Of a stretch of 64,000 bases of DNA, positions 41,161-60,492 are shown piece by piece. The stretch lies in contig NZ_BAAAOH010000001.1 in the NCBI RefSeq assembly GCF_039530225.1, positions 4,154,001 through 4,218,000 of the forward strand, given 5' to 3'. This stretch comes from Microbacterium pumilum (lineage in GTDB: Bacteria; Actinomycetota; Actinomycetes; Actinomycetales; Microbacteriaceae). The notes beneath the pieces were generated by a model that saw nothing but the letters and a program-made list of their open reading frames with translations, had not been told where the DNA came from and ran no database searches. Each line of letters begins with the position of its first letter. The first letter of the stretch is position 1. Position numbers and translations under genes: made by a program.

Positions 41161-41194
41161 GCACCGCATCCGGGTCGAACAAGTGGATGCTGCG

Positions 41195-41266
<72 letters not shown>

Positions 41267-46445: not shown

Positions 46446-46508
46446 GGCGATCCTCTCTCTGCCGGCGCGCGGCCGCACGCCCATCCTGGCATGCGAGGAG
46501 CGGATGCC

Positions 46509-47066: not shown

Positions 47067-47137
47067 CCGCCCAGGGTAATGGGCGACCCCGGGTAATCGA
47101 GCGAGCGAAGCGAGACGAAACGGCCCGGGTTAACGAC

Positions 47138-47164
47138 TGAAGCGCCCCCCGGGGGGGCGCTTCA
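47138..47164. terminator. Near-perfect GC-rich hairpin left of the element
   Basis: TGAAGCGCCCCCC abuts GGGGGGGCGCTTCA, and the plus strand continues into AAACGTTTT. It sits just outside the 54-bp repeat and would have been the terminator of the undisturbed tRNA-Tyr gene on the minus strand, though the T-rich side is on the plus strand. Confidence 0.6.
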
Positions 47165-47169
47165 AACGT

Positions 47170-47223
47170 TTTGTGGCGAGTGAGGGATTCGAACCCCCGA
47201 AGTCTAAGACGGCTGATTTACAG
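47170..47223. repeat. Left attachment repeat: 54 bp copy of the 3' end of tRNA-Tyr
   Basis: The 54 bases are identical to 60,320-60,373 and in the same orientation. They cover tRNA-Tyr from the anticodon loop to the 3' end plus 4 bases. Sequence diverges immediately beyond both ends. This is the att copy left on the chromosomal side. Confidence 0.95.
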
Positions 47224-47777
47224 CTGTCCGGGACAGCCCTTCCCCGCTGAACCGAGCCAAACCGATCTGATCGCTCTTGGCCCGACTTGCCCCTCAAGAT
47301 TCCGGCGGAATCTCGCACTGGGAGAGGTCAGTTCGGTTCAGTTCGGTTCGCCGTTCGGAGGCGCGGTCGGTGGGGTTCTCGTGGGGTTTCGCCCAGACCG
47401 CGTGCTGGGCGCTCGCACACGAGAACGGCGCGGTTGGGGCAACTCCCCTCCCGCGCCGTCCTGTTGGCCAGGTGGCCACGAGGGCCACAGCGGCGTGCCA
47501 ATCTACTGGGCACGCTCGCCGCACTGCTCTAGTAGCTCGGGTCTGGCATGGCACCGTAGGCGATGCCGCCGTACGCGCTCGGTGTGCGTATCGAGGTGCC
47601 ATAGTCGCTCTCTTTCGTCCTGGTCGTCGAGCGACTCAATTCCGCTCGGCACCCTTGTCGCGGGCGACGACCTTGCAACGTTTGCACTTCTGACCAGGAG
47701 ATTGTTTTGGCGCTCGACCAAATCACCCACATCAAACGCGGGAGACTTAAGAGACCGAATACCGACAGGAGACCCCG
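47224..47777. other. Left-end non-coding region of the element
   Basis: No gene is supported in these 554 bases. They hold a direct repeat of AGTTCGGTTC near 47,334, a nested stem arrangement at 47,548-47,602, and a short hairpin CGAGCG/CGCTCG near 47,630. The promoter for the first operon should lie before 47,778. Frames running through from the att repeat are open but have no start or ribosome site. Confidence 0.45.
47548..47602. ncRNA. Possible structured RNA (three-way junction)
   Basis: An outer 8-bp helix ATGGCACC (47548-47555)/GGTGCCAT (47595-47602) encloses GGC-GAT-GCC and TACGC/GCGTA, giving a three-helix layout of 55 bases. No known RNA family is recognised. It could be a DNA-level structure or chance, since the inner helices are short. 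Confidence 0.3.
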
Positions 47778-47996
47778 ATGGCTCGACCAAACATCCTCGG
47801 CGACAACAACGTCGTAGTGAAGACGCGAGTACCCGCAGCAGTGGCCGAGGCAATCGACCTGATCGTGTCCATGACGGGCGCTACCCCGGCTTCGGTGCTT
47901 CGAGACCTGATTACCGCGGGTCTCCAGCCGTACGCACTGGTCTCGTCGGAAATCGCTGCCGCACTGCCCACCACCACCTACAAGAAGGAGAACTGA
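47778..47996 (+). CDS. Small ribbon-helix-helix-like protein
   Basis: The 72-residue protein starts at an ATG with ACAGGAG upstream. The N-terminus NVVVKTRVPAAVAEAIDLIVSMTGATPASVLRDLI fits a ribbon-helix-helix DNA-binding fold (a beta strand with basic residues, then two helices). It is the first gene of the element's rightward operon, so it may regulate that operon or copy control. The fold call is from pattern only. Confidence 0.65.
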   Translation: MARPNILGDNNVVVKTRVPAAVAEAIDLIVSMTGATPASVLRDLITAGLQPYALVSSEIAAALPTTTYKKEN

Positions 47997-47998
47997 CC

Positions 47999-48616
47999 AT
48001 GCCCATCAAGCGCCGACTGACCGTAGAGGAGATCGCCTCGCGCAAGAGCCGATTTCCCGGCCTGCGAAACCCGGTGAGCACCCTCACCGAGCACACGTTC
48101 CTGACCGATGAGGAGAACGCTGCACTCCGCGATTCGCTCGACCACAACGAGACCACACAGGAATTCCTTGCACGGGTCACCGGCGACACGACGACCGCGG
48201 AGGATCGGGACACCCTGACCGCCGAGTTCGATCGGTCCCGCAACATGCGGATCGCCGCTGCACAGCGTCGCGACAGCGAGGCCAATGTTCGTGCTCGCGC
48301 CGAGTCACAGCCGGTCCGTCAGCGCCAGCCTGTGTCACCGTCGAACCCGTTCGGGGCATACCTGGACGAACGCCACGACAACCTCCCTGAGTACCCGGCG
48401 CGAGGCACCGCGCAGCTCACGCAGCTCCAGGAGGCCGCTCAGGACTACCGCAGCGCCGTGTCCGTCCTGGAGGAAGCGCTCGACAGCATGACCGACGACT
48501 TTGCCGAGGCCTTCGCCAAGGAGGACGCCCGTCGCGCCGTGCGGGACCGCATGACCAACACCGCCAACGAACGCATCCTGCGAGAAGCGTCACAGCGCCG
48601 CAATCGGATCGGCTGA
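47999..48616 (+). CDS. Element protein of unknown function (205 aa)
   Basis: The ATG at 47999 has AAGGAG upstream and follows the previous stop by 2 bases. The protein is hydrophilic and charged, with a Glu/Arg-rich N-terminus (MPIKRRLTVEEIASRKSRFPGLRNP), a Pro-rich middle (VRQRQPVSPSNPFGAYLDERHDNLPEYP) and a C-terminal helix-rich segment likely to form a coiled coil. I recognise no domain. A longer open frame begins inside the att repeat but lacks a ribosome binding site. Confidence 0.7.
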   Translation: MPIKRRLTVEEIASRKSRFPGLRNPVSTLTEHTFLTDEENAALRDSLDHNETTQEFLARVTGDTTTAEDRDTLTAEFDRSRNMRIAAAQRRDSEANVRARAESQPVRQRQPVSPSNPFGAYLDERHDNLPEYPARGTAQLTQLQEAAQDYRSAVSVLEEALDSMTDDFAEAFAKEDARRAVRDRMTNTANERILREASQRRNRIG

Positions 48617-48630
48617 GAGGAGCCACCATC

Positions 48631-49200
48631 ATGAGCACTGCAATCAAGCGCGTCAGCACCACCAACATCCCAGGCGAGGAGCCGCTCGACCGCGAAGGCC
48701 ACGACTACAAGCCGTTGCCCCCACGCGTCACGGACGGTCACTACTTCGACGCCCGCGTGCCCGCCGACATCATCGACCGAGTCCGCCGCGACGCCCGCAA
48801 CAGCGTGTACCCGAACAGCACCGTCGAAGCGGACACGATCCGCAAGACCGACGAGGCTGTCTTCGAGAAGGTGCGCATCCTGGAGGACTACCAGATCGGA
48901 CAGGCGCAGTCGATGCTCGAACGCAATAAGGGGCGAGTCGGCGCGGCGCTGAGCTACGTCGACCAGATCGACGCTTTGCGTGAACGGCTCCGAGCAGGCG
49001 AGGACACCAAGGTCATCGCCAAGGAGTTCAACGCTCTCGAAGGTCGGATTCGCAACCGCGAGATTTCCTTGCTCCAGGGCATGGCGGGCGAGGCCGAGAC
49101 CGTCGAAGCCGCGCTCGCAGACCCGGTCGGCAACGCGCAACACATCCTCCACCTCATGCCACTCGACTTCGGCCGCACCGCAGGACTTGTCCGCAACTGA
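48631..49200 (+). CDS. Element protein of unknown function (189 aa, helical)
   Basis: The ATG with GAGAGGAG upstream lies 14 bases after the preceding gene. The sequence is acidic and largely helical, with a probable coiled coil in the second half (LEDYQIGQAQSMLERNKGRV, QIDALRERLRAGED, EFNALEGRIRN). No catalytic motif or membrane segment is seen. The gene is followed by a strong hairpin (49,205-49,245) that may end or attenuate this first transcript. Confidence 0.7.
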   Translation: MSTAIKRVSTTNIPGEEPLDREGHDYKPLPPRVTDGHYFDARVPADIIDRVRRDARNSVYPNSTVEADTIRKTDEAVFEKVRILEDYQIGQAQSMLERNKGRVGAALSYVDQIDALRERLRAGEDTKVIAKEFNALEGRIRNREISLLQGMAGEAETVEAALADPVGNAQHILHLMPLDFGRTAGLVRN

Positions 49201-49204
49201 AACA

Positions 49205-49245
49205 GTGACGGGCTTGCAGCACAGCACGTCTGCAAGCCCCGTCAC
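49205..49245 (+). terminator. Stem-loop after the first three element genes
   Basis: GTGACGGGCTTGCAG (49205-49219) pairs with CTGCAAGCCCCGTCAC (49230-49245) with one bulged base and a 10-base loop. It starts 5 bases after the stop of the upstream gene. Confidence 0.6.
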
Positions 49246-49279
49246 CCGGAGGTACAGCCCGAAAGGAAGGTCACATCAC

Positions 49280-49768
49280 ATGTCCCTGATCGCTACTCTA
49301 CCGGAACGATCGTTCTACCCGCTGGTCACTCCGCTTGACCCTTATTTCAACGTGGTTTGGGATGTGGAACCCGAGCCCGAGTTCAGCATCACATCGCGTA
49401 CGCCGATGGTGCTCTTGCCAGCAGTCGCGCTCGCCACGCTCCGCTACGCCGTGGGAGCGCCATGCGACATGCACATCGCGTCCGCGGGCATGGTCAGCGA
49501 GGCGTCCGTCAGGCTGAGTGTGCTCTGGCTCAAGGGCTCGACGCTGTCGGCCTGGGAGATCGCGCTCATGTTCCAGATGCTCTGGTTCAACGGCACCGGG
49601 GACCGGCGCGACCGCCGCACCCCACTTAAGGGTCTCGACCTCATCCGGGCCACGGACGAGCTTGAGTGTGGCGGGTTGCAGTGGCACTGCGACATGCCCA
49701 CCAAGGACGACCCGTACACCTTCGAGCGAACCCGCCTGAAGGACGCACTTTCAAGGTTCGAACGTTGA
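49280..49768 (+). CDS. Element protein of unknown function (162 aa)
   Basis: The ATG at 49280 has GAAAGGAAGG 9 bases upstream, a strong reason to prefer it over the longer frame from 48,980. The protein is a mixed alpha/beta globular type with two Trp-rich stretches (NVVWDVEPE and ALMFQMLWFNGTGDRRDRR), an APCDMH segment and a Cys-containing C-terminal end. No family is recognised. It lies between the hairpin and the HTH gene. Confidence 0.7.
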   Translation: MSLIATLPERSFYPLVTPLDPYFNVVWDVEPEPEFSITSRTPMVLLPAVALATLRYAVGAPCDMHIASAGMVSEASVRLSVLWLKGSTLSAWEIALMFQMLWFNGTGDRRDRRTPLKGLDLIRATDELECGGLQWHCDMPTKDDPYTFERTRLKDALSRFER

Positions 49769-50127
49769 CATTCGACTTCCCGCGGGCAGGCAACAGCATC
49801 GCCCAATTGAGCCGACTCGAAAACGGGTAAACTCAACTAGACCGAGCTGAACGGCTCGATCACCAGCAGTATCAGCAAGATCCGCTGTTCCAAAGGCACC
49901 CGCGATGGGTTGACCCGAGGTTCGCGGCAAGCGAGTTCCAGGTGGAAAGCCGCCACTCCCGGCGACGGGGATTGGCGAGAACGTGTCGATCTCTCGAAGA
50001 TCAGGCAGACACCCAGGTCCGTAAAGCCGAGCAGCAGAACCATCCATCGACAAATCATGTCGAGGGGTTCTGTACTCGGCTTTCGTCGTTTCTGGACCCT
50101 CTCGGCATTCCCGAAGGGATTCCGCAA
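49769..50127. other. Gene-free region upstream of the HTH gene
   Basis: No gene is supported in these 359 bases. A frame opening at 49,942 runs into the HTH gene but lacks a good start. A TTGAGC-15-TAAACT pair near 49,806-49,832 is a possible promoter for the replication operon. Confidence 0.4.
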
Positions 50128-50337
50128 ATGGCTACCACTGACCCCACTCCCACCGTCTATCGCATCAGCACTGCACCAGAGCACCCGCTCGCGAAGAAAT
50201 ACGGCATCACTGAGCGCATGGTGCGCCGTGCCGTACAGACCGACCGGCTCAAGTACGCACGGCCCAACGGCTTGCACGTGCTGATTCTCGCCGAGGACAT
50301 CGAGGCCTGGATTCTCGACAGTCGCAACGACGCCTGA
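50128..50337 (+). CDS. Small excisionase-like helix-turn-helix protein
   Basis: The 69-residue protein starts at an ATG with GAAGGGA upstream. It has an HTH_17/MerR-type core: HPLAKKYGITERMVRRAVQTDRLKYARPNGLHVLILAEDIEAWI. Such small proteins serve as excision directionality factors or as activators. It precedes the replication gene by about 70 bases and is the only candidate excisionase in the element. Confidence 0.75.
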   Translation: MATTDPTPTVYRISTAPEHPLAKKYGITERMVRRAVQTDRLKYARPNGLHVLILAEDIEAWILDSRNDA

Positions 50338-50406
50338 CCCAGCCCGCGAGCGTCCACCAAGGCAAGCGCGCTCATGCACATCACACGACTTCACGAAGGA
50401 AGCTCC

Positions 50407-52341
50407 ATGAGCACCGAAGTACCGCCACAGCTACAGATGTGGCTCGACAGGCTGGATGCGGACTCGATCCAGCACACAGGCCATCAGCAATACAAGGCGC
50501 GCTGTCCCGCCCATGACGACGACCATGCGTCGCTGTCAGTCGGATGGGGTGACAAGGGCAAGGTCGTGGCGACCTGTCATGCCAACTGCACCTACTCCGA
50601 GATCGTCACGAAGCTCGGACTCACCAAGCGCGACCTCGAACCGCAGCGGAAGGTCGTGGCGAGATACGACTACAAGGACGAGGACGGCGTCCTGCAATAC
50701 CAGGTCACCCGTTGGGAGCCGAAGTCATTCAGCCAGCGCCGTCCGGACCCGGCACATAGGGGTCAGTGGATCAACAACATGGATAGCATCGAGCCGCTTC
50801 CGTTCCACCTGCCCGAGCTTGCCGAGATGGTCGAGCACGGTACCGAGGACGACTGGCTGTGGATCGTCGAGGGCGAGAAAGATGTGCTCGCCCTCGAAAC
50901 CGCATATGGTGCCATCGCCACTTGCAATCATCAGGGCGCCGGTAGCTGGACCGATCCGCACGCCGAGCATCTGATCGGCTTCAAGGGTTCCATCGCCATC
51001 GTCATCGACAATGACGACAAGGCGACCAAGCCGGGACAGAAGCACGCTCTGGAGGTCTACGAGTCGGTTCGCCGGGTAGCCGGCATCGAGGCTGAGCTGG
51101 TCTACCCCGTCGAGGGCAAAGACGCGGCTGATGTCGTCGGCAAGTACGACGAGGAGAGCGGCTTCGTCGCAGTCACGCCCGACATGCTCCGCGCCGAGAT
51201 CCAAGACGCGTCATCGAAGAACCCCGAAGCCGACGAAGTGTACGCCGCCATCGTGGCGCTGTTCATGGCCGAGGAGGACGCCCGCACAACACTGATCGCG
51301 GAAGTGCACTCGGACGGTGACATCCTCGCGATGACGCCGCCACGGTACGCCATCGAGGGCTGGCTGCCGGTCGGCTTCTTCTCGGACTTCTTCGGCGAGC
51401 CGGGGTCCAAGAAGACGTTCGTGATCAACGACCAGCTCCGGCACATACGCGCGGGCAAGGCATGGCACGGTCATGACGTCACCCGTGGCGCCACGTTGCT
51501 GTTTGAGGGCGAGGGTCTGGAGCAACTGCAGGACCGCATCATCGCCTGGGACGAGTACCACGGCAACCCCGAGATGGCTCCCGGTGGCCACGTCTCAACG
51601 CCCATCGACATGACAACGCCTGAAGGCGTGGCGCGAGTCGTGCGGACTGTCCGCGACTTCGAGCGGGCACATGGCGGCGAGCGTGTCGTCGCCGTCGCAT
51701 TCGACCCTGTCGTGGAGTACATGAACGGCGAGGAGAACGGCGAGGGGATGGAGCTGGTGACGCGCGGCTTCCGCGCCCTGGCTCGCTACCTCGACATCGC
51801 TGTCGTCCTGGGCGCTCACACCAACGCGTCAGGCGAGCGTGCGCGTGGCGGTGACCAGCTGAGAATGCGAGCCGGTGCCCACGTCCGTGTCGAGACCTTG
51901 AAGGACGACCGCGTCGGGCTGGTACAGGAGAAGCAGAAGAACGGCGAACGTCGCGCGCTGCAACTGTTGCCGGTGTCGTGCGGTCCGTCGCTCGTTCTCG
52001 AGAAGCTCGCCGCGATGTCGGCCAGCGAGTACTACGCCGACAAGTCGAACACCGACTTCCAGGATCGTGCGGCCAGCAAGCTTCAGTTCTCGAAGACCTC
52101 ATCGGTCGTCAAGCATTCCGCCGCCGATCAGATGCTCATCGACTACGTCCGCGATCATCCCGGCATCGGCAAGGGCAAGCTCGCGGACGCCACTTCGGGT
52201 CAGGGCGTCGGTAAGCCCACGCTCGAAACCCGGATCGACGCTCTGCTCGCTGACGGCACGTTCCGCGTCGAGCGCGAGGGCACCGCGCGCAACTCGCCGT
52301 CGCATTACTTCCTGGTCGAGACCACAGAGGAGGTCGAGTGA
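50407..52341 (+). CDS. Toprim/AAA ATPase replication protein (primase-helicase like)
   Basis: The ATG at 50407 with GAAGGAAG upstream gives 644 residues. A CHC2-like zinc site (C33, H36, C57, C61) is followed by a toprim domain (IVEGEKD near 151 and IVIDNDD near 196). A RecA-like ATPase follows, with a P-loop GEPGSKKTF (about 330) and a hydrophobic strand ending in Asp (VVAVAFDP, about 428). The C-terminus (575-644) is a winged-helix-like region. Proteins of this kind start or drive replication of plasmids and satellites. The P-loop has Lys where Gly is usual before the conserved Lys, which is odd. Iteron-like repeats lie just downstream. Confidence 0.82.
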   Translation: MSTEVPPQLQMWLDRLDADSIQHTGHQQYKARCPAHDDDHASLSVGWGDKGKVVATCHANCTYSEIVTKLGLTKRDLEPQRKVVARYDYKDEDGVLQYQVTRWEPKSFSQRRPDPAHRGQWINNMDSIEPLPFHLPELAEMVEHGTEDDWLWIVEGEKDVLALETAYGAIATCNHQGAGSWTDPHAEHLIGFKGSIAIVIDNDDKATKPGQKHALEVYESVRRVAGIEAELVYPVEGKDAADVVGKYDEESGFVAVTPDMLRAEIQDASSKNPEADEVYAAIVALFMAEEDARTTLIAEVHSDGDILAMTPPRYAIEGWLPVGFFSDFFGEPGSKKTFVINDQLRHIRAGKAWHGHDVTRGATLLFEGEGLEQLQDRIIAWDEYHGNPEMAPGGHVSTPIDMTTPEGVARVVRTVRDFERAHGGERVVAVAFDPVVEYMNGEENGEGMELVTRGFRALARYLDIAVVLGAHTNASGERARGGDQLRMRAGAHVRVETLKDDRVGLVQEKQKNGERRALQLLPVSCGPSLVLEKLAAMSASEYYADKSNTDFQDRAASKLQFSKTSSVVKHSAADQMLIDYVRDHPGIGKGKLADATSGQGVGKPTLETRIDALLADGTFRVEREGTARNSPSHYFLVETTEEVE

Positions 52342-52715
52342 TGGGCCATCCAATCGAGGGCGGGGACGCCTATGAGAACGCAATCCTGCGCCCCGAGCGC
52401 GGCCTGGAGGTCGCTCCTCGACTGACTGCCGGTTACGCCGCGCTGGTCGAATTGCTGGCTGATGGTGAAGAGCGGTCGCGCGCTGAGTGCTACGCCGCCA
52501 TCGAGGAATCCGGCGAGCGCGGTCTTGCAACTGCGACGGCGGCATCGCTGATCGAGAAGGCGATCTACTACGGCCAGCTCGTCGGGCGGTTCGGCTACGA
52601 GGCGCGTGTGGGCGCGTCGGGTCGAGCGCGGAACTTCCGAGTTTATCTCGCATATCGCCTCACTCCTGAGGGGTTGCGCACCGCGAATCAGCGTGAATCG
52701 GGCGGTGACCCGTGA
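52341..52715 (+). CDS. Small winged-helix-like protein downstream of the replication gene
   Basis: The ATG at 52341 overlaps the previous stop (TGATG) and encodes 124 residues. A helical core (LTAGYAALVELLADGEERSRAECYAAIEESGERGL, then ATAASLIEKAIYYGQLV) looks like a winged-helix layout followed by a beta hairpin RVYLAYRLTPEG. It may be an accessory replication or control factor. Its stop codon lies inside the first GTGACCC repeat unit of the iteron array. Confidence 0.65.
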   Translation: MGHPIEGGDAYENAILRPERGLEVAPRLTAGYAALVELLADGEERSRAECYAAIEESGERGLATATAASLIEKAIYYGQLVGRFGYEARVGASGRARNFRVYLAYRLTPEGLRTANQRESGGDP

Positions 52716-52817
52716 CCCGTGACCCGTGACCCCGGGATGGCGGGTCACTGTGACCCGGTGTAGTGACCCGCGATACCCGTTTACGGGGTCGCACGGGTCA
52801 CACACGGGACATGACCC
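52705..52817. repeat. Iteron-like array of GTGACCC, probable replication origin
   Basis: Four tandem exact GTGACCC copies (52705-52732) are followed by GGGTCAC (52742-52748), GTGACCC (52750-52756), GTGACCC (52763-52769), GGGTCAC (52795-52801) and a one-mismatch ATGACCC (52811-52817). Three further near copies belong to an ACCCG/CGGGT palindrome at about 52,774-52,789. Direct and inverted short repeats downstream of a replication-protein gene are typical of plasmid and satellite origins. Confidence 0.6.
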
Positions 52818-52875
52818 AAGGGGACGACCGACAGCAAGTGATTGATCAACAACTGATGGAGAAGGAGTGGAAGTC

Positions 52876-53715
52876 ATGAAGAACAACAACGAGGTCGAAG
52901 CTTTCGCCGATCGCCCGCTTTGCAACGCACCGACGAAGCATGGAGGTCCGTGTCGATCGCGTGCGTTGCGGAACTCAAGCCGATGCCGCTCACACGGCGG
53001 TGCCACACCCGCAGCCATTGACGCCGCGCGAGTGAGGGCGTTGCGCCAGGCCGACCCGCTGATGGCGAAGTTGCATGCCATCGCATTCAACGATGAGATG
53101 CCGCCACAGGTGCAGCTTGAGGCGATCAAGCACGCGCTCAAGGTCACGGGTGCATTCGAGGCGAAGCAGTCCGTCGAGATCGACATGATCGGCAAGCCGC
53201 GCGAGAAGACCTTCGAGGACTTCGCGATGGAAGCCCTGGTCGATGTTCTGCAACCGGGCGACGACGGCTATGAGGAGGATCTTCTCGAGAAGCTGCAGTG
53301 GCACCGTCAGGCACTCACCGAAGACTCGAACGTCATCGACGCCGAAGTGATCGAGGACGTCATCGTGTCGCGCGCGAAGCTCAGCCCCGACGAGCCGCCA
53401 ATCCAGAACCGCCACGACCGCGCGCTGACCGCTGAGGTTGCACAGTCGCAGCGCACCCGGCGTCCGGGTGCCGGCCAGCCCAAGCGACCGCCCACCGCTG
53501 ACTATGCAGATCTGGACGCCCCGACGAGCGATCGGCCGGTCGGTTCGTTCCGGAGCGATGACGTCGAGGCGATGAACGACCAGACCGATCACGAAGAGGC
53601 CGAGGTCGAGCGGGTGAAGGAAGCCGAGCGCCAGCGCAACCTCAAGCGGATCGTCAAAACCCCTCGCAACGGCACCGCGACGATGAGCACGCCTACGAGG
53701 AGGCGGCAGCGCTGA
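52876..53715 (+). CDS. Element protein with Cys/His zinc-binding-like N-terminus
   Basis: The ATG at 52876 with GAAGGAG upstream gives 279 residues. The N-terminus RPLCNAPTKHGGPCRSRALRNSSRCRSHGG has the C-x(8)-C-x(10)-C-H-type spacing of an HGG-C finger common in actinobacterial mobile-element and phage proteins. The middle is helical and acidic, and the C-terminus is basic with TPTRRRQR. Its function is unknown. Terminase small subunits carry similar fingers, but no large subunit is present. Confidence 0.68.
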   Translation: MKNNNEVEAFADRPLCNAPTKHGGPCRSRALRNSSRCRSHGGATPAAIDAARVRALRQADPLMAKLHAIAFNDEMPPQVQLEAIKHALKVTGAFEAKQSVEIDMIGKPREKTFEDFAMEALVDVLQPGDDGYEEDLLEKLQWHRQALTEDSNVIDAEVIEDVIVSRAKLSPDEPPIQNRHDRALTAEVAQSQRTRRPGAGQPKRPPTADYADLDAPTSDRPVGSFRSDDVEAMNDQTDHEEAEVERVKEAERQRNLKRIVKTPRNGTATMSTPTRRRQR

Positions 53716-53940
53716 CCCGGAGCCACACGAGGATGGCCGCTCCCACAAGAAGCCCGCTCCCGAGGGGTAGCGGTGGGGTACGGCCATCCCGTTGGCCCCT
53801 AGGCCAAGCTCGCACCGGAGCAGAATGCACCATGACTCGCCGTCGTACTGAGCAGTTTGCCTACTGGGGACCTAGTAGGCGATAGTAGCTCTCGTCAACA
53901 ACCGAACAAATGTTCGACTGACACGACCGAAGGAACGGCA

Positions 53941-54414
53941 ATGACCACTTCCAAGAAGACCCAGCCCACTGCTCCCCTGGCCCACCGCGTGCCCGCCGAG
54001 GTCAGCGACCTCATCGCCACCTACGCGGCATGGATCGAGGAGCAGACCGGCTACAAGGCCGACCCGATGAGCGTGTACCTGGGTAGCCAGCTCCGCAGCA
54101 CGTTCCAGAAGGGCGAGTCCAACCAGGCTCGACTGGCTCAGGCCGCGAAGGACCGTGCAGCGAAGGCGGCTGCAAAGGCAAAGGCTCGCGCCGAGCGTGA
54201 AGCGGCAGCGGCTTCTAGGGCTGCACAGAAAGCGGCTGAGGAGAAGGCCAAGGCACAGGACGCCGCCGACAAGGTAGCCCCGGTCAAGGTAAGCCCCAAG
54301 GCGCAGGCCAAGATCAACGCCGTGATGCCCAAGCCCGCGAGCAAGCCCGCTCGCCGTCGCCCGGCCAACGCGGCTGTGGCACCCGTCGCCACCGAGACCG
54401 TCGAGGCGGTCTGA
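53941..54414 (+). CDS. Ala/Lys-rich protein with ribbon-helix-helix-like start
   Basis: The ATG at 53941 with GAAGGAAC upstream encodes 157 residues. After APLAHRVPAEVSDLIATYAAWIEEQTGYKADPMSVYLG, a plausible small DNA-binding fold, the chain becomes a long Ala/Lys/Glu coiled coil and ends in a basic, Pro-rich tail (ASKPARRRPANAA). The tail resembles histone-like or nucleoid-binding tails of actinobacteria. It could package or tether element DNA. This is inference from composition. Confidence 0.6.
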   Translation: MTTSKKTQPTAPLAHRVPAEVSDLIATYAAWIEEQTGYKADPMSVYLGSQLRSTFQKGESNQARLAQAAKDRAAKAAAKAKARAEREAAAASRAAQKAAEEKAKAQDAADKVAPVKVSPKAQAKINAVMPKPASKPARRRPANAAVAPVATETVEAV

Positions 54415-54416
54415 GT

Positions 54417-54866
54417 ATGGCGAACCCGACACAGCGTCAGGTACGCGAGTACCTGATGGCTGACAACGGCTGGGCGGGCGAGGAAGTCGATGCCTTCCTC
54501 GCCCGCCACGGCGGTCTGCTCGATGGCGTCGGCGTCACCCGCGCCACGACCGAAGAGTGGACTCTCCTCGCGATGTCGCACAACGAGGAGCAGAGCCCGG
54601 AGGAGGTCGGCGTGGATGGCGTCACCCTCCCCGGCGCTCGCATCTGCCTCATCGCCACGACAGACGAGTACACACGGCTCGAACCTGGCGCGATGGGCAC
54701 GGTCGAGCTGATCGATGACGCGGGCACCGTGCACGTGCATTGGGACACCGGCGAGACCTTGGGCCTCATCCCCGGCGAGGACACCTGGGCACCGCTCCAC
54801 CCGCGATGGGACGCCCAGCATATGGAGCAGGTTCACCCCGCATCCGACGCCGAGGAGAACCGATGA
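54417..54866 (+). CDS. DUF4314 domain protein
   Basis: The ATG at 54417 lies 2 bases after the previous stop and gives 149 residues. The C-terminal part matches the DUF4314 pattern found in mobile elements: GARICLIATTDEYTRLEPGAMGTVELIDDAGTVHVHWDTGETLGLIPGEDTW-like, here from about residue 78. The N-terminal half is an unknown acidic helical region. The biochemical role of DUF4314 is not established. The stop overlaps the next start by four bases. Confidence 0.75.
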   Translation: MANPTQRQVREYLMADNGWAGEEVDAFLARHGGLLDGVGVTRATTEEWTLLAMSHNEEQSPEEVGVDGVTLPGARICLIATTDEYTRLEPGAMGTVELIDDAGTVHVHWDTGETLGLIPGEDTWAPLHPRWDAQHMEQVHPASDAEENR

Positions 54867-55051
54867 GCGACACACGCCCAGATGCACGCCGTCTGACTCG
54901 CACCACTTCCGCTCGTCGTGAGCGCGGACACTTGCGCGATCACCTGGTCGATCTCATGGACGCCAACGCTCCCATCAGCGAGACACAGCCCATCCGCGAG
55001 CGCATCCAGCAGCTCAACACGCAGATCGAACGAGAGGACGGCCACCGATGA
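54863..55051 (+). CDS. Small basic helical element protein (62 aa)
   Basis: The ATG at 54863 overlaps the previous stop (ATGA). The 62 residues form a charged helix-turn-helix-sized chain (LTRTTSARRERGHLRDHLVDLMDANAPI then IRERIQQLNTQIERED). No family is recognised. The four-base overlaps on both sides show that it is translated with its neighbours. Confidence 0.6.
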   Translation: MSDTRPDARRLTRTTSARRERGHLRDHLVDLMDANAPISETQPIRERIQQLNTQIEREDGHR

Positions 55052-55374
55052 ACGCCTCGTTCGACGGCTACTGGGCCATGTACGACGCCACCCTCGCGCG
55101 CATCCGTAACGAGAAGCCCGACACGTTCGCGGCCCTCAAGGTGATCCTCGACGAGTTTGAGCCGCCGTCGTCCGGAGACGCGTTCTTCCCAGGCGGGGCG
55201 GACGACGACCTCGCCGACGCTCTGCATGATGCCGGATGGGAGATCCACCTCAACGAAGGCACGTACGTATACATGGCACGTCACCCGGTCAGCCGCGCGA
55301 AGCTCCACCACATCGAGGGCGACCTGTACGACCGAACCCGGATCCACCCCACGAGCCAGGAGAAGAGCGCATGA
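55048..55374 (+). CDS. Element protein of unknown function (108 aa)
   Basis: The ATG at 55048 overlaps the previous stop by four bases. The protein is acidic and mixed alpha/beta (NASFDGYWAMYDATLARIRNEKPDTF, FFPGGADDDLADAL, HLNEGTYVYMARHP). No domain is recognised. Its stop overlaps the recombinase start (ATGA). Confidence 0.6.
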   Translation: MNASFDGYWAMYDATLARIRNEKPDTFAALKVILDEFEPPSSGDAFFPGGADDDLADALHDAGWEIHLNEGTYVYMARHPVSRAKLHHIEGDLYDRTRIHPTSQEKSA

Positions 55375-56042
55375 CCACGATGATCGGCTACCTGCGAGTG
55401 TCCACCGAGGAGCAGGCCACGTCTGGCCTTGGGCTGGAGGCTCAGCGCGACACAATCACCCGCTACGCCACGGCGCACGGCTGGGATGTGGTCTGGTACG
55501 TGGACGAGGGGCTGTCGGCCAAGTCGCTCGACCGTCCGCAGCTCCAGGCCGCGCTCACCCGCCTGCACCCCAAGAAGCGCGATGTGGCCGGTCTGCTCGT
55601 CGCGAAGCTCGACCGCCTCAGCCGGTCGGTGCACGACTTCTCCGGTCTGCTCAAGCTCGCGAACGCCCGGAAGTGGTCTGTCGTGGCCATCGACCTGGGC
55701 GTGGACACCAGCACGCCCACCGGGAAGCTGGTCGCGAACGTGATGATGTCCGTCGCTGAGTGGGAGCGCGAGATCATCGGCGAGCGCACGTCCGCCGCGA
55801 TGCAAGCCGCGCGTCGCCAGGGCAAGACGTTCGGCTTCCCGTCCGCACTCGACCCCGCCACGGGAGCACGCCTTGTTGAGCTCAGGGCCTCGCTGACCCT
55901 GGCCGGCACTGCCGACGCCCTCAACGCCGAGGGGCTGACCACCGCGACAGGCGGGCAGTGGAACGCCAACACCGTCGCGAAGGTGCACAAGCGCCTGACC
56001 ATCGACCCCACCAAGGAAATCGAAGCGGCACAAGCCGCCTAA
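55371..56042 (+). CDS. Serine recombinase (resolvase/invertase type)
   Basis: The ATG at 55371 gives 223 residues. The N-terminal catalytic domain has the nucleophile Ser in YLRVSTEEQ (Ser11), the Arg cluster in KLDRLSRSV, and an E helix near AEWEREIIGERT. A short C-terminal helix-turn-helix (GTADALNAEGLTTATGGQWNANTVAKVHKRL) ends the chain. This is resolvase size, not that of a large serine integrase, so it probably resolves multimers or flips a segment. It sits in an element that also has a tyrosine integrase. Confidence 0.9.
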   Translation: MTTMIGYLRVSTEEQATSGLGLEAQRDTITRYATAHGWDVVWYVDEGLSAKSLDRPQLQAALTRLHPKKRDVAGLLVAKLDRLSRSVHDFSGLLKLANARKWSVVAIDLGVDTSTPTGKLVANVMMSVAEWEREIIGERTSAAMQAARRQGKTFGFPSALDPATGARLVELRASLTLAGTADALNAEGLTTATGGQWNANTVAKVHKRLTIDPTKEIEAAQAA

Positions 56043-56060
56043 CCAGCAAGGAGCAACACC

Positions 56061-56321
56061 ATGGCAAGTTACACACCTGGAGCCGTCGTCACCGTGGGAG
56101 ACCTGGAAGTCGGTGACACCGTCTTCCTCCGCGAGCGCCGTTCGCAGACGGGAGGTCTGCCGCAGTCCATCCAGTCTGCCGTCGTCACGGCGGTGACCCC
56201 GCTTGCAGACGGGCGTGTGCGCGTGTACGTGCGCAACACCGGCTCTGGCGCATCCGTCCCTGCACGACTGCTGGGCGACCTGCCCGTGACGCGTACCTTC
56301 CGCGCGGCTGTCGCGGGCTGA
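56061..56321 (+). CDS. Small element protein (86 aa, beta-rich)
   Basis: The 86-residue protein starts with MASYTPGAVVTVGDLEVGDTVFLRERRSQ. Its regular pattern of hydrophobic residues and glycines suggests a small beta barrel, such as an SH3-like fold. The next gene has a related layout (VRPGHIVMESHEHPAVVVRVERPHNG), so the two may be diverged copies. Function is unknown. It starts 18 bases after the serine recombinase. Confidence 0.55.
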   Translation: MASYTPGAVVTVGDLEVGDTVFLRERRSQTGGLPQSIQSAVVTAVTPLADGRVRVYVRNTGSGASVPARLLGDLPVTRTFRAAVAG

Positions 56322-56324
56322 CCG

Positions 56325-56576
56325 ATGTCCACCGCGCACGAACTCACACCCCGCACCCGAGCCGTGCGCGCGGCCGACGTGCGACCCGGACACATCGTCA
56401 TGGAGAGCCACGAGCATCCTGCCGTTGTCGTTCGGGTCGAACGTCCGCACAACGGCACGCGGATCCGGCTCTACTGCCGGTTCGTGTGGCAGGCGTCCAC
56501 AGAGCCCACCTGGGCCATGCCCGAAGACCACACCCTGCGCGCCGACGACATCGTGCAAGTCGCCCGCAACCGCTAA
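56325..56576 (+). CDS. Small element protein (83 aa, beta-rich)
   Basis: The ATG at 56325 follows the previous stop by 3 bases. The chain (RAVRAADVRPGHIVMESHEHPAVVVRVERP, then LYCRFVWQASTEPTWAMPEDHTLRADDIVQV) is another probable small beta barrel with a KOW/SH3-like layout. No catalytic motif is seen. It ends 27 bases before the integrase start. Confidence 0.55.
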   Translation: MSTAHELTPRTRAVRAADVRPGHIVMESHEHPAVVVRVERPHNGTRIRLYCRFVWQASTEPTWAMPEDHTLRADDIVQVARNR

Positions 56577-56603
56577 TTCGCAATCCCCACCAAGGAGCAC
56601 CCC

Positions 56604-57800
56604 ATGGCAAGCGTCAGAGAAGTCCAACGAGCAGACGGCATCGCGTACGAGGCGCGTTGGCGCGACAACGGCAAGTATCGACAGCGCACGTTCACCGTCA
56701 AGCGCGAGGCTGAGCGGTTCGCGTACCGAATCGAGAACGAGCTTGCAGACGGGCAGAGCACCGACGCACTGGTGAAGAACGCCAAGCGGTTCCGCGAGGT
56801 CGCAGACGCGATGCTCGATGCGAGCAAGAAGCTCAAGCCGAAGACCCGGCGCGGGCTGGAGGACGCGCTCAAGCTGCACATCCACCCGACGTTCGGCGAC
56901 CGGCGCATCAACACGATCACGTCGCTGGACGTGGAGGCGTGGCTGGCCGATCTCGAGGTCAAGGTGTCCGCCAAGACCAAGGAGCCGCTGTCAGCGAGCA
57001 CCCGGCGCGGCATCGTCATCGCGCTGTCCAAGGTGTTCCGCTACGCGCTCAAGCACCGGCTGATCAACGCGAACCCCTGCGCCGTCATCGACAAGCCCAC
57101 CGCGCGCCGCGAGGAGCCTATCTTCCTGACGCCTGCCGAGGTCGCCGCGATCATGCAGCACGTCGGCGAGCGCGAACCGGTCTACGCGCTGGTCGTGCGC
57201 TTCGCCGCGTACAGCGGAGTGCGCCCCGGCGAGCTGGAGGCGCTACGTATTCGAGATATCAACTTCATGCACCGCCACGTCGAGGTCCGTCGCCAGGCGC
57301 AGTTCGCACCCGGCGAGGGCTGGAGCTACATCACCCCGAAGTCACAGGCGGGTCGCCGGGATGTGCCGTTGTCCGCGAGCCTCCTGCTGGCGCTCCGCGA
57401 GCACATCGCCGCCCACCCTTACCGGGCTGACCCCGACGCGCTCCTGTGGCCAGGGAGGCGCAAGGGTGGCCACGGCGACCACCGCGCGCCGCTGAGCTAC
57501 GACGCGCCGTTCCGCCACGAGAGCGTCTATCGCTCGTACGTCCAGCCTGCGATGATCGCCGCTGGCATCGAGCCGGTCGTCTGGTACGCCTTCCGCCACT
57601 ACTTCGCGAGCGCTTGCGCCGCAGCCGGTTACAGCATCCACGACGTGGCGAAGTGGATGGGCCACAGCAACATCCAACTCACGTACTCGACCTACATGCA
57701 CCTTTTCGTAGGGACGCACGACATGGACCGCCTCGACGCGCTAAGTGCCACCCCGCCCGTACAAGCGATCCCTCTGCGCGGTGTCGGAGGTATGTGGTAA
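56604..57800 (+). CDS. Tyrosine recombinase (integrase) of the tRNA-Tyr element
   Basis: The ATG at 56604 with CAAGGAG upstream gives 398 residues. An arm-type binding region (SVREVQRADGIAYEARWRDNGKYRQRTF) is followed by a core-binding domain (about 60-165) and the catalytic domain. The Arg is in SGVRPGELEALR (about 206), the box II Arg in WYAFRHYFAS, the Gly-His in WMGHSNIQ and the nucleophile Tyr in STYMHLF. In box II the usual His is replaced by Tyr (YAFR), as in some other actinobacterial integrases. It is located about 2.5 kb from the right att site and is expected to act on the 54-bp tRNA-Tyr repeat. Confidence 0.92.
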   Translation: MASVREVQRADGIAYEARWRDNGKYRQRTFTVKREAERFAYRIENELADGQSTDALVKNAKRFREVADAMLDASKKLKPKTRRGLEDALKLHIHPTFGDRRINTITSLDVEAWLADLEVKVSAKTKEPLSASTRRGIVIALSKVFRYALKHRLINANPCAVIDKPTARREEPIFLTPAEVAAIMQHVGEREPVYALVVRFAAYSGVRPGELEALRIRDINFMHRHVEVRRQAQFAPGEGWSYITPKSQAGRRDVPLSASLLLALREHIAAHPYRADPDALLWPGRRKGGHGDHRAPLSYDAPFRHESVYRSYVQPAMIAAGIEPVVWYAFRHYFASACAAAGYSIHDVAKWMGHSNIQLTYSTYMHLFVGTHDMDRLDALSATPPVQAIPLRGVGGMW

Positions 57801-57935
57801 CGCACACACGTGGCACACCACAACCCCTCTATTTGACACACTTTAGGTGCACAGCAAACGTGGAGGTTGACACCAATTGTGGAAATCGCTCCGACACGCT
57901 GGAGTTTGGGTGTGGGTGCATGTACACTCCAAGAC

Positions 57936-58496
57936 ATGGACCAGGATCCGCTCCGCACGACACTCGACACCCTCCGCCACGAGCGACATGGCGCTGAGCT
58001 GCGCGCGTCCGAGTTGCAGGACGAGCTGACAGACGTCGCACAGCGGCTGACACATCTCCGAGGAGCCATCGAGAACATCGAGGCATTGCTTGGAGAGCCC
58101 AGTGAGGATGACGCCGCCGTACTCAGAGACGACAACGAGGAAGTTTTTCATGCGGAGGCACAAGACCTCGACTTCATCTACACGCCCGACCAGCCGCCCC
58201 GCCTTGTCAACGACCCGTTTGAGCCGCCGCCCATCCGCAAGCGCGTTCCTTCGACAGATTGGGTAGCTGAGGTCGTCAACGCAATCGGTCGTCCGGCAGA
58301 CCGCGACACGATTTACCAGAAGTTCGAAGAGTTGAAGGGCATCCCTGATTCGTGGAATGCGAACCCTCGCAACTCGTTCAACAACGCGCTCGGTCGCGCG
58401 GTCGAACGGCATCTGATCGGCAAGTTCGGCGATCTTTTCGGTCCGAGGGGCTACAACCTCTCGGAGACATCCAGTTCGGCTAGCGAGGAGTCGTGA
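57936..58496 (+). CDS. Coiled-coil plus winged-helix protein beside the restriction-modification pair
   Basis: The ATG at 57936 gives 186 residues. A TACACT -10-like box ends only 8 bases before it, and no ribosome site is present, so translation may be leaderless. Residues 10-55 form a coiled coil (LRHERHGAELRASELQDELTDVAQRL) and a linker is acidic. Residues 105-175 look like a winged helix (VPSTDWVAEVVNAIGRPADRDTIYQKFEEL, then NNALGRAVERHLIGKFGDLFGPRGY), a layout like the HARE-HTH type seen in restriction and DNA-sensing proteins. Inverted GGAGT/ACTCC arms at 57,900-57,930 could be its operator. Function is unknown. Confidence 0.65.
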   Translation: MDQDPLRTTLDTLRHERHGAELRASELQDELTDVAQRLTHLRGAIENIEALLGEPSEDDAAVLRDDNEEVFHAEAQDLDFIYTPDQPPRLVNDPFEPPPIRKRVPSTDWVAEVVNAIGRPADRDTIYQKFEELKGIPDSWNANPRNSFNNALGRAVERHLIGKFGDLFGPRGYNLSETSSSASEES

Positions 58497-58562
58497 TGAC
58501 CGTGTAGGGAGTGGCCGAGGTCTACAAATCGCCGGACGCGGTGATCTCGGCCTACCGGCTCA

Positions 58563-58673
58563 ACAGGAATTCCAGTTCCTGTGAGTCGCAGCCTCGGAGG
58601 AGGTACAGGCCTGCGCTGGCCTGAGGGTTGGTGAGAACCTCCCGGAAGTCTACGGTCTGACGAGACCGTGGAC
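58563..58673. other. Hairpin-rich non-coding stretch between convergent genes
   Basis: Two strong stem-loops, ACAGGAA/TTCCTGT (58,563-58,582) and an 11-bp stem (58,648-58,673) with loop GACG, precede the terminator. No gene is supported in 58,497-58,726. Confidence 0.45.
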
Positions 58674-58679
58674 AAGCGC

Positions 58680-58713
58680 CGAGAGGGGTCGCCCAGCCGG
58701 GTGGCTCCTCTCG
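58680..58713. terminator. Terminator between the winged-helix gene and the nuclease gene
   Basis: CGAGAGGGGTCGCCC (58680-58694) pairs with GGGTGGCTCCTCTCG (58699-58713) with some G-U pairs and a 4-base loop. It may serve both convergent transcripts. Confidence 0.6.
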
Positions 58714-58726
58714 CTTGGGTTGAGCG

Positions 58727-59287
58727 TCAGAACCGACCGTCGCCGGCGTCCGTCAGCAGTTGCGCGACTGTCGAGAGACGGTCGCCGTACGGCGCCATCC
58801 AGGGGTAAGGATCGTCCGCCTGGAATCCTAACCACGCGGTGTCACTTCCACTGGCACCTGTGTGCTGTCCCATGTGTCCGATCACATATTCCAGCAGCAG
58901 GTCCTTCGGGAGCAACCAGGCATTGACCTCGAATGGACTGATGCCGAGGCACAGGCAGTGGTCGTAGTCCTGATCGCGTATCTGCTGAAACTTGAAGCCG
59001 CCCGACCGCCACAGCGTGGACATCTTGACTTCGATACGGTGACCGTTGATTATCCGATCCGCGTTGCTCGACGGCGAGCGGCGAACATCGAGACCTCTCG
59101 CGATCGCCCATTCCTGCACAAGCAACTCGCCGATCGCTCCCTTAGTACGCGACGGCACCCTCAGGATCCACTCGAATGGACTGCCCAACCATGGATCGTC
59201 ATCGGCCGCGACGTAATTAAGAGCGAGTGATGCCGCGCTGGCGGCCATCACTGCGAAGTCAGGATCTTCAGCTGGGTCTAGGTGCAC
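58727..59287 (-). CDS. Probable restriction endonuclease, PD-(D/E)XK fold
   Basis: The 186-residue protein shows an N-terminal helix KGAIGELLVQEWAIARG, then ADRIINGHRIEVKMS. The spacing of Asp to Glu-x-Lys fits the PD-(D/E)XK nuclease active site. No similarity to a named enzyme is claimed. The GTG start overlaps the methyltransferase stop by 20 bases, so the two are translated together. It is at the right end of the element, reading leftward. It is probably the nuclease half of a Type II-like system that protects or stabilises the element. Confidence 0.72.
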   Translation of the reverse strand: MHLDPAEDPDFAVMAASAASLALNYVAADDDPWLGSPFEWILRVPSRTKGAIGELLVQEWAIARGLDVRRSPSSNADRIINGHRIEVKMSTLWRSGGFKFQQIRDQDYDHCLCLGISPFEVNAWLLPKDLLLEYVIGHMGQHTGASGSDTAWLGFQADDPYPWMAPYGDRLSTVAQLLTDAGDGRF

Positions 59288-60185
59288 TCTCCGGATTGTG
59301 CACGATTGTGACCTGCGAGTCCAATGCGCCGTCGTCCAGTCGTCGCTGCATGACGGCGATCGCCTCTGGGTTGCTGTCGACCAAGACGAATCGTCGCCCG
59401 AGCTGCCGTGCCGCAGCGCCGGTTGTGCCGCTGCCGGCGAAGAAGTCGAGAATCCAGTCCCCTTCGCTACTGCTGGCCTGAATCATTCGTCGAATGATCC
59501 CGACCGGCTTTTGGGTTGCGTAACCCGTCCGCTCCTTGCTTGCGGGCGGCACAATCGTGTGCCACCACACGTCTGTGGGGAGCTTGCCGAGGGCAACCTT
59601 CTCTGGAGTCACGAGGCCTGGAGCCATGTACGGTTCCCGATCGACATCCTGACCGTTCCAGACGTAGTTTTCAGGGTCCTTGACGTACACGAGCACGTTG
59701 TCGTGCTTCGTCGGCCACTTCGTCTTTGATCGCGCGCCGTAGTCGTAGGCCCAGATGATTTCGTTTAGGAAGCTCTCGCGTCCGAACATCGCGTCGAGGA
59801 CTACCTTCGCGTAGTGGACCTCGCGGTAGTCAAGGTGCAGGTACAGGGTGCCATCCGGGGTCAGCAGACGCCACGCCTCGAGTAGTCGCGGTTCCAGAAA
59901 CGCCCAGTAGTCCGTGAATGCGTCGTCGTAGGAATGGAGGGTTCCCTTGACTGTGTCGTATGTCTGACCTTTGAAACCCACCCGCGAACCGGTGGCCGAT
60001 CGGCTGGTCTTCAGCGACTGCAGGCGCTGGGTCCGACCGGTATTGAAAGGCGGGTCTATGTAGATCACTCGAAAGCTCTCGTCGGGGAGCGTCCGAATGA
60101 AGTCGAGATTGTCGGCCTCGACTATGAGGTCGTCCCCCTCGGGAGTCCATGCTGTCTGAGAAGTTACGTTTTCACTCAAGGTCAC
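59268..60185 (-). CDS. Site-specific DNA adenine methyltransferase, beta class
   Basis: This 305-residue N6-adenine (or N4-cytosine) methyltransferase has the catalytic motif VIYIDPPFNTG near residue 40 and the AdoMet-binding FFAGSGTTG near residue 243. Motif IV precedes motif I, which defines the beta class. YATQKPVGIIRRMI, typical of the family, lies between them. The GTG start at 60185 lacks a strong ribosome site. It precedes and overlaps the nuclease gene and would protect host and element DNA at its own site. The recognition sequence cannot be read from the protein. Confidence 0.93.
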   Translation of the reverse strand: MTLSENVTSQTAWTPEGDDLIVEADNLDFIRTLPDESFRVIYIDPPFNTGRTQRLQSLKTSRSATGSRVGFKGQTYDTVKGTLHSYDDAFTDYWAFLEPRLLEAWRLLTPDGTLYLHLDYREVHYAKVVLDAMFGRESFLNEIIWAYDYGARSKTKWPTKHDNVLVYVKDPENYVWNGQDVDREPYMAPGLVTPEKVALGKLPTDVWWHTIVPPASKERTGYATQKPVGIIRRMIQASSSEGDWILDFFAGSGTTGAAARQLGRRFVLVDSNPEAIAVMQRRLDDGALDSQVTIVHNPESAPRPS

Positions 60186-60271
60186 GCGACAACGCTACCT
60201 CGGGTAACGGACTTCACCCGATCACCGGGTGGGGTTTCCGTGGGGATCGGCGGAACACTTTCGACATCGAA

Positions 60272-60315
60272 GAATGGCCCGGACTCCGCGACTCTTGCGG
60301 AATTCCGGGCCATTT
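60272..60315. terminator. Hairpin between the methyltransferase gene and the tRNA-Tyr gene
   Basis: AATGGCCCGGA (60273-60283) pairs with TCCGGGCCATT (60304-60314), followed by TTCGGGTTTG. It separates tRNA-Tyr from the methyltransferase gene, just inside the right end of the element. Confidence 0.65.
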
Positions 60316-60319
60316 CGGG

Positions 60320-60373
60320 TTTGTGGCGAGTGAGGGATTCGAACCCCCGAAGTCTAAGACGGCTGATTTACAG
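60320..60373. repeat. Right attachment repeat, 54 bp
   Basis: It is identical to 47,170-47,223 and forms the 3' part of the functional tRNA-Tyr. The element supplied this copy and so keeps the tRNA intact. Confidence 0.95.
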
Positions 60374-60405
60374 TCAGATCCCTTTGGCCGCTTGGGTAAC
60401 TCGCC
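60324..60405 (-). tRNA. tRNA-Tyr (anticodon GTA)
   Basis: The 82-base minus-strand sequence has acceptor GGCGAGT/ACTCGCC with discriminator A, anticodon loop CTGTAAA between CTGA and TCAG, and a long variable arm (GCCGTCTTAGACTTC) as expected for bacterial tRNA-Tyr. It is intact because the element restored its 3' half. Confidence 0.96.
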
Positions 60406-60492
60406 AAATGCGCCCCCGTCCAGCTTTTCCAGTCGACCGGAGGCGCGATCAACAATCGTACCCTGTGTCGCGCAGTGCTCGGAACCGAGGGG

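Follow-up and report, generated by a model that had tools for sequence, protein, structure and literature searches.

Phage-inducible chromosomal islands (PICIs) are described as carrying an integrase, an excisionase (xis), a fused primase-Rep followed by an origin, a homologue of the small-terminase gene terS in some cases, no structural genes and a set of element-specific genes (PMC6092414; statements about this and the other published accounts refer to the parts of them available to us). In mycobacteria, candidate PICIs have been defined by a capsid gene, and many integrated elements lack phage-related genes (PMC10654092, section 9). Elsewhere it was only noted that small actinobacterial elements could be satellites (PMC10023795), and capsid-less elements are therefore easily passed over in actinobacteria. 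Novel satellite types in Cyanobacteria and Actinobacteria have also been mentioned, for which the identifiable actinobacterial reference is a Streptomyces study (PMC11389934). Here, we describe an element of ~13.2 kb at positions 47170-60373 of a 64,000-nucleotide stretch of Microbacterium pumilum DNA (contig NZ_BAAAOH010000001.1, positions 4,154,001 to 4,218,000; hereafter the window). Judged from its genes, this element is likely to be a phage satellite without a capsid gene, working in the manner of a PICI. The reading rests on tRNA attachment sites, an integrase, a helix-turn-helix (HTH) gene, a primase-helicase, iterons, a zinc-finger protein with an HGG motif (the HGG protein), restriction-modification (R-M) cargo, conserved gene order and the lack of detected structural genes. 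We write PICI-like, and not proven PICI, because no clear master repressor was found and the anatomy was read from genes alone. Our literature search found no account of this capsid-less actinobacterial branch, which may nevertheless have been detected earlier in the main satellite survey (PMC10085698).

An integrated element and its family

The element is bounded by a perfect 54-bp direct repeat, the longest listed for 46500-61000 (the next is 29 nt at 72%); the right copy covers tRNA-Tyr from its anticodon loop onwards and extends 3 nt beyond the gene's 3' end. The GC content of the element is 63.9%, against 70.4% in the left flank and 68.9% in the right, and the host chromosome is a single contig of 4.45 Mb. 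All 19 open reading frames (ORFs; g01-g19) were scanned against Pfam and PHROGs, with PADLOC used for defence genes. The features are as follows, L-numbers denoting loci in other genomes.

47132..47170, no strand: hairpin adjoining the left repeat (inverted repeat; fold dG -27.5), probably the old terminator of tRNA-Tyr
47170..47223, no strand: left attachment-site repeat, 54 bp, exact copy of 60320-60373
47778..47996, +: g01, small protein, first in the leading operon, ribbon-helix-helix-like by eye; no Pfam match, 45% identical homologue in L033
47999..48616, +: g02, no assigned function; no Pfam match passes the cut-off, L014 and L033 hold partial homologues
48631..49200, +: g03, element-specific, no assigned function (profile search)
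49280..49768, +: g04, element-specific, no assigned function (profile search)
50128..50337, +: g05, HTH_17 protein (Pfam E 7e-6, 26.6 bits, just under the cut-off of 27), putatively excisionase/AlpA-like; homologues adjoin the primase in relatives
50407..52341, +: g06, fused primase (toprim) and AAA_25 helicase, the likely replication initiator; Pfam AAA_25 2e-17, Toprim_3 2e-5 under cut-off, PHROG primase/helicase families
52338..52715, +: g07, small protein, winged-helix-like by eye; 51% identical homologue in L033, which has the same iterons
52705..52801, no strand: GTGACCC iteron cluster, both orientations, putative replication origin; six copies in 52716-52866
52867..53715, +: g08, HGG zinc-finger protein, small-terminase-like; phrog_3678 2e-5, weak match to the small-terminase family phrog_10899 (0.0017)
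53941..54414, +: g09, N-terminal part common to Microbacterium phages; 41 phage records, 36 of them Microbacterium
54417..54866, +: g10, DUF4314 protein (Pfam 7e-20)
54863..55051, +: g11, small ORF
55048..55374, +: g12, 67% identical homologue in L033
55371..56042, +: g13, small serine recombinase of resolvase/invertase type (Pfam Resolvase 3e-41), in 7/7 family elements
56061..56321, +: g14, ORF only
56325..56576, +: g15, kept in two relatives (42% to L014, 48% to L033)
56604..57800, +: g16, tyrosine integrase (Pfam Phage_integrase 1e-18), in 7/7 family elements
57936..58496, +: g17, cargo; in no PADLOC or PHROG family, and no Pfam match passes the cut-off
58727..59287, -: g18, type II restriction enzyme, cargo (PADLOC REase_II 3e-104)
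59268..60185, -: g19, type II DNA methyltransferase, cargo (PADLOC MTase_II 4e-168; Pfam N6_N4_Mtase 1e-43)
60320..60373, no strand: right attachment-site repeat, within tRNA-Tyr (repeat search)
60323..60405, -: tRNA-Tyr(gta), target gene, which remains intact (ARAGORN, Rfam)

Among these ORFs, Pfam and PHROGs detected no capsid, portal, tail or large-terminase (TerL) family and no other structural or lytic phage gene, and Pfam found no relaxase or FtsK/VirB4 transfer gene. A sequence-only reading of this DNA had proposed exact ends at the 54-bp repeats in tRNA-Tyr, on which repeat search and ARAGORN agree, and an absence of recognised transfer or capsid genes, which the scans bear out. The genes it had named (toprim/ATPase, DUF4314, serine and tyrosine recombinases, an R-M pair) were recovered by Pfam and PADLOC, and the iterons it had seen are real by the shuffling test described below. 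We note that the AAA_25 P-loop at 51394-51417 reads GEPGSKKT and not the usual GKT ending; the L015 protein is alike (GAPGAKKT), that of L013 is not.

Searching the HGG protein against 398 Microbacteriaceae genomes matched six, our own included, the other five giving loci L013-L017. A seventh member, L033 from Cryobacterium psychrotolerans (Microbacteriaceae), came from a separate scan. These seven syntenic elements measure 9.9-13.2 kb between repeats and have a common order: g02-g04, the HTH gene, the fused primase-helicase, the HGG protein, the serine recombinase and the tyrosine integrase, with varying cargo. Six of the seven lie in tRNA genes, of five kinds, with repeats of 35-61 bp. Their repeats, target genes, iteron 7-mers and cargo are listed here.

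Window element: 54 bp; tRNA-Tyr; GTGACCC; type II R-M
L013: 35 + 18 bp with two mismatches between; tRNA-Tyr; CCCGACC; cytosine methylase with Vsr
L014: 19 bp only; no tRNA; CGAGGCG; PD-T4-10-like/DUF6575 protein (weak)
L015: 48 bp; tRNA-Thr; ACCGAAC/CCGAACC; BamHI-type R-M
L016: 40 bp; tRNA-Met; PD-T4-6-like kinase
L017: 61 bp; tRNA-Ser; GAGCCGC; SIR2-domain protein (Pfam only)
L033: 45 bp; tRNA-Gly; GTGACCC; DUF2511 protein

The cargo comprises known or plausible defence genes in 6/7 elements; among the families that PADLOC labels as defence are kinases and methylases, which may serve other ends. Both g03 and g04 are present in all seven, the L015 copies being found by profile. A g03 profile built from five of the elements finds the other two, and a g04 profile built from six finds the seventh, L015, at E 1e-14; neither matches any of 20 other HGG loci or 15 viral loci. 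Moreover, across 396 genomes of the order the g04 profile matched only our own genome and G226. The structure model of g03 is helical and of low confidence (predicted local distance difference test score 56.7), too poor for a structure search. Queries of eight TerL, three portal and six capsid proteins matched nothing in the seven elements, of which the window element was also scanned ORF by ORF; the TerL and portal queries likewise matched nothing in 12 bounded elements.

The primase-helicase is a mosaic. In the window protein the N-terminal part is nearest to L016 and L017 and the C-terminal part to L013, L015 and L033, and the L014 primase has matches in L013 and L015 and no direct one in the window protein. 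At 6884-9382 of L017 the AAA_25 helicase half is apparently replaced by another helicase, SF3/D5-like by eye, with gene order kept. This locus also has a third copy of its tRNA-Ser repeat (50 bp, at 1478-1527), 2 kb beyond the inferred left end, and this outlying copy may mark a neighbouring element or island.

A cluster of a single 7-mer in both orientations lies between the primase (or g07) and the HGG gene in 6/7 elements, with five different 7-mers among them. Each slot was subjected to 500 dinucleotide shuffles, and density was measured by a 150-bp sliding window over the whole element. In the 151-bp slot of the window element (52716-52866) no shuffle reached the six copies of GTGACCC; the same held for L033, L014, L015 and L017, with 1/500 in L013 and 144/500 in L016. 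In each of the six elements with a cluster, no other place is as dense in a 7-mer as this slot. The Rep C-terminus of the window element is 68% identical to that of L033, which has the same iteron, versus 26-31% to those of L013 and L015, which have others.

For an empty-site comparison 38 genomes were searched. The right-flank gene was present in 16 besides our own, and 14 kb around it was examined in 12 of the 16. It lay together with tRNA-Tyr in 12/12 of these same-genus genomes. At the 12 tRNA-Tyr loci the element proteins matched nothing except one 28%-identical integrase in L070, and no clean empty junction was found, two of the 12 (L061 and L062) holding the left-flank gene ~2 kb off with other sequence between. 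By this kind of search the element is rare among relatives, since its primase matched its own genome only among 148 of them at E 1e-20.

The HGG protein and phage packaging genes

An alignment of six element HGG proteins recovered at least 15 IMG/VR loci. Among the matches listed, 11 of 15 loci, read by eye, have a large-terminase-like ORF after the HGG relative, directly in eight and after one gene in three (L019, L024 and L031); L025 is counted as direct despite a short opposite-strand ORF called between the two genes. All ten of the TerL-like ORFs tested match TerL families (six a Pfam terminase, four a PHROG terminase large subunit); the eleventh (L030) is near-identical to L029. The L015 HGG protein matches 24 phage records from 16 named phages, and the distance of the HGG gene from TerL was examined in nine isolates. 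In Microcystis phage Mae-JY09 the HGG gene overlaps TerL, and in the circular record D_HF5_3 it is the last gene and TerL the first. In TripleJ it lies one gene away, a distance that assumes, as do those given later for FuzzBuster, Kozie and MementoMori, that the ends of the linear record join; the stretch of Megan read does not hold TerL.

All six element HGG proteins tested match phrog_3678 and four match the small-terminase family phrog_10899, with E up to 0.0017; moreover, the L017 protein matches another small-terminase family, phrog_2538, beyond the finger. The structure model has a well predicted finger and three helices. Foldseek against BFVD gave one match at or below 1e-3, a WRC protein of a myovirus, and the top 50 hold seven weak entries named "terminase small subunit" (E 0.1-1.8). 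On gene context, the HGG protein belongs to the phage packaging neighbourhood, because its relatives lie near TerL, at mixed distances, in IMG/VR loci and in isolate phages. Where it abuts TerL it is probably, if not provably, the small terminase. Phage small terminases have been described with an N-terminal HTH (PMC9611059), and a zinc finger at that position would therefore be unusual with respect to that account.

The backbone in other actinobacteria and a candidate helper

A profile of the HGG protein matched 12/398 genomes of the family and 28/394 of the class, our own included in each. Outside the window family 31 genomes had a match, and 20 loci were examined, the genomes outside this set being G372, G893, G918, G945, G946, G961, G982, G993, G1101, G1147 and G1156. 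Six loci (L190, L191, L192, L195, L197 and L200) hold the primase-helicase, HGG protein, serine recombinase and integrase in the same order as the window family, the L191 primase being assigned by eye and that of L200 split over two ORFs. The sequence-only reading had suggested looking for the same gene order in other actinobacteria, and it is thus present both in the family elements and in loci beyond. Of the six loci, all but L197 have repeats of 39-52 bp at tRNA genes and measure 10.3-12.9 kb. Iterons are clear in the primase-HGG slot of L190 and L205 (0/300 shuffles), and L200 has ten copies by scan only. The best 7-mer of L192 lies at the slot edge and the slot itself fails (92/300), and the slots of L191, L195 and L197 lack iterons (146, 10 and 244 of 300 shuffles).

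In 9/20 loci there is a gene for a phage major head protein (phrog_3990; the six tested gave E 1.1e-95 or lower), and three of the nine (L196, L197 and L204) were found with a capsid profile built from the other six carriers. This gene is present in five of the six backbone loci and in none of the seven window-family elements; conversely, g03 and g04 are found in none of the 20 loci. L191 carries the backbone with neither capsid nor g03/g04, its slot holding a PE/PPE-like protein by eye. Capsid and HGG genes without the full backbone order occur in L196, L199, L203 and L204, the order is present in L205, which ends at a contig edge, and L193, L194, L198, L201, L202, L206 and L207 are partial or different. 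TerL queries matched only L208 and L209 among the 20 loci. In L208, a Microbacteriaceae prophage-like locus, HGG, serine recombinase, tRNA-Asn and TerL are consecutive.

Two further groups were seen among these loci. Microbacteriaceae loci L199 (6500-15700), L203 (4400-13100) and L204 (1000-8400) have a capsid gene, an HGG protein, a serine recombinase and, by eye, a ComM-like neighbour; the HGG proteins of L203 and L204 appear by eye to have two fingers, and no tRNA or repeat was found at the three loci. They may form one more branch of satellites. Mini-elements, 5.7-6.7 kb long and with tRNA repeats and an HGG gene, occur in L194 (9423-15170, also with serine recombinase and integrase), L207 (5721-11530) and L198 (3799-10487). 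None of the three has a primase match, and they may be derivatives or relics.

The window protein g09 is 47% identical to Krampus gp42 over 62 residues, and the L195 capsid matches 152 actinophage records, at 42-43% identity among the ten matches listed. Within the 32 kb of Krampus examined there is a capsid of the same type (35-41%) and, upstream of the terminase, a weak match to HGG (E 1.7e-4). Krampus thus combines a g09 homologue with the capsid type of the sister elements and a distant HGG match, which makes Krampusvirus-like Microbacterium phages a candidate helper lineage. The helper is probably an incoming phage, since a search of the host's own genome with one large-terminase family gave a single very weak match (E 1e-3). 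The g03 and g04 proteins of the relatives matched nothing in phages, and among the best 80 of 119 IMG/VR helicase loci none matched the other element genes used as queries.

The remainder of the window was also inspected. Positions 1-41000 have lower GC (63.5%) and hold, by eye, carbohydrate-use genes, LacI-type regulators and a 3008-aa ORF. An integrase-like ORF (39490-40677, -) and a small xis-like ORF (40677-40874, -) adjoin tRNA-Met/Thr at 41086-41266, and positions 1-41000 may therefore be a genomic island in their own right; searched by 16-mers, the tRNA-Met/Thr region has no repeat elsewhere in the window. As a helper prophage the stretch 1-41000 was rejected, since it reads by eye as a carbohydrate-use island.

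Interpretation and comparison with known systems

If the element is such a satellite, its leading operon would be repressed by g01 or some other regulator until a helper infects. Integrase and HTH protein would then excise a circle, and the primase-helicase would bind the iterons and replicate it. The HGG protein, as or together with the small terminase, would steer the helper's large terminase onto satellite DNA, and capsid, tail and lysis would be supplied by the helper. The serine recombinase would probably resolve or otherwise process multimers, and the R-M cargo would protect the host from other phages.

Several observations weigh against this interpretation. Between the HGG gene and TerL the distance is five genes in the phages Montesquieu and FuzzBuster, eight genes in Kozie and MO526, and ten genes in MementoMori; in the last, the annotated small terminase is another gene beside TerL. 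The window HGG protein itself has no match in phages, and Foldseek with its model gave no significant small-terminase match and nothing at or below 1e-3 in PDB. The primase and g03, searched as single proteins (g03 also as a profile), matched nothing in IMG/VR, and L016 has no iterons in its primase-HGG slot. The regulators of PICIs are a divergent pair, one of them a master repressor. In the window element no Stl-like repressor is recognisable and no Pfam repressor family matched, and the small divergent gene that L013, L014, L015 and L033 show by eye is not evident. Lastly, a conserved small serine recombinase is, to our knowledge, not a usual PICI gene.

An integrative plasmid-like element, to which we give a small but appreciable chance, would replicate from the iterons and spread by transformation, passive transduction or an origin of transfer (oriT) acting in trans, the HGG protein being a DNA-binding protein of replication or partition. 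Iterons, resolvase-type recombinases and DUF4314 also occur on plasmids, and the primase matches 42 plasmid records, mainly in its N-terminal part among the 30 matches listed. However, the L016 HGG protein matches 15 phage records and none of 72,556 plasmid records, HGG relatives lie near TerL in phages, related loci carry a phage capsid gene, and Pfam shows neither a relaxase nor an FtsK family. The sequence-only reading had offered a phage satellite or a mobilizable element; the same results support the former and give no support to the latter in the sense of conjugative mobilization. A decayed prophage, immobile after the loss of head, tail and lysis genes, is highly improbable. Phage relatives of the HGG protein, g09, primase-helicase and integrase would fit it, as would the row of HGG, serine recombinase and TerL in L208, but seven genomes have the same genes in the same order, five kinds of tRNA gene serve as the site in six of them, g03 and g04 are kept in all, and iterons and Rep are matched. 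Independent decay is therefore an unlikely source, and we rejected it on the conserved gene set and order. A defence island with relic mobility genes, retained for its R-M system, seems just as remote: the R-M cargo does adjoin the integrase and relatives hold other defence-like genes, but the mobile core is conserved while the cargo varies. A conjugative element was rejected, Pfam showing no relaxase or FtsK family.

Within the satellite interpretation, we tentatively raise a broader possibility, which we think doubtful on present evidence: that the element is one of an undescribed superfamily of actinobacterial satellites whose morphogenesis slot is exchangeable, occupied by a capsid gene in one branch and by g02-g04 in the Microbacteriaceae branch. 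The common backbone would be the HTH protein, primase-helicase, often iterons, HGG packaging protein, serine recombinase and integrase, and g02-g04 may remodel or seize the helper capsid. If true, small terminases would have a new DNA-recognition module in the HGG finger. A capsid gene versus g02-g04 on one backbone gives a natural contrast for how satellites choose between building and stealing capsids. Moreover, the family supplies a gene signature for capsid-less satellites and a way of matching iterons with their Rep, and it points to a candidate helper lineage among Microbacterium foliorum phages.

Actinomycete integrative and conjugative elements (AICEs) such as pSAM2 are, as here, actinobacterial and tRNA-integrated with a Rep/Xis/Int module, and they carry an FtsK-like Tra protein; by Pfam, the window element has no such family. 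Capsid-forming PICIs differ in that the window element has no capsid, portal or TerL match. The mycobacterial candidate PICIs and phiRv are likewise small integrated elements, some at tRNA genes, and the integrase and major capsid by which they are defined occur together in the related loci described here but not in the window element (PMC10654092). The Streptomyces satellites Mulch and Flayer are also actinobacterial; unlike the window element they encode small and large terminases, portal, capsid and scaffold, and, going by the account available, no primase (PMC10690885). Phage-inducible chromosomal minimalist islands (PICMIs) of Vibrionaceae are, as here, small, with integrase, regulator and primase and no capsid-remodelling genes, but are ~6 kb, and the main text of their description makes no mention of a terminase in the part available (PMC10803314).

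Compared with PICIs, including the Staphylococcus aureus pathogenicity islands (SaPIs), the window element differs in having no recognisable Stl-type repressor and a zinc finger in its terminase-like protein, in its family's conserved serine recombinase, in an integrase placed opposite the leading operon and in the host phylum. At 9.9-13.2 kb, the family is somewhat under the typical ~15 kb of PICIs (PMC6092414). The sequence-only reading had called the type undescribed, which holds for the genes, which differ and for whose branch we found no account, and not for the layout, which is that of PICIs (PMC6092414). A terS homologue, which some PICIs have, would have its candidate counterpart in the HGG gene, for which position and weak profile matches speak, whereas the distance from TerL in several isolates does not. 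Taken together, the integrase, putative HTH/xis gene, fused primase-Rep followed by a putative origin, own attachment sites, element-only genes and accessory cargo, with no structural or lytic genes detected, are features that the element shares with PICIs and SaPIs (PMC6092414).

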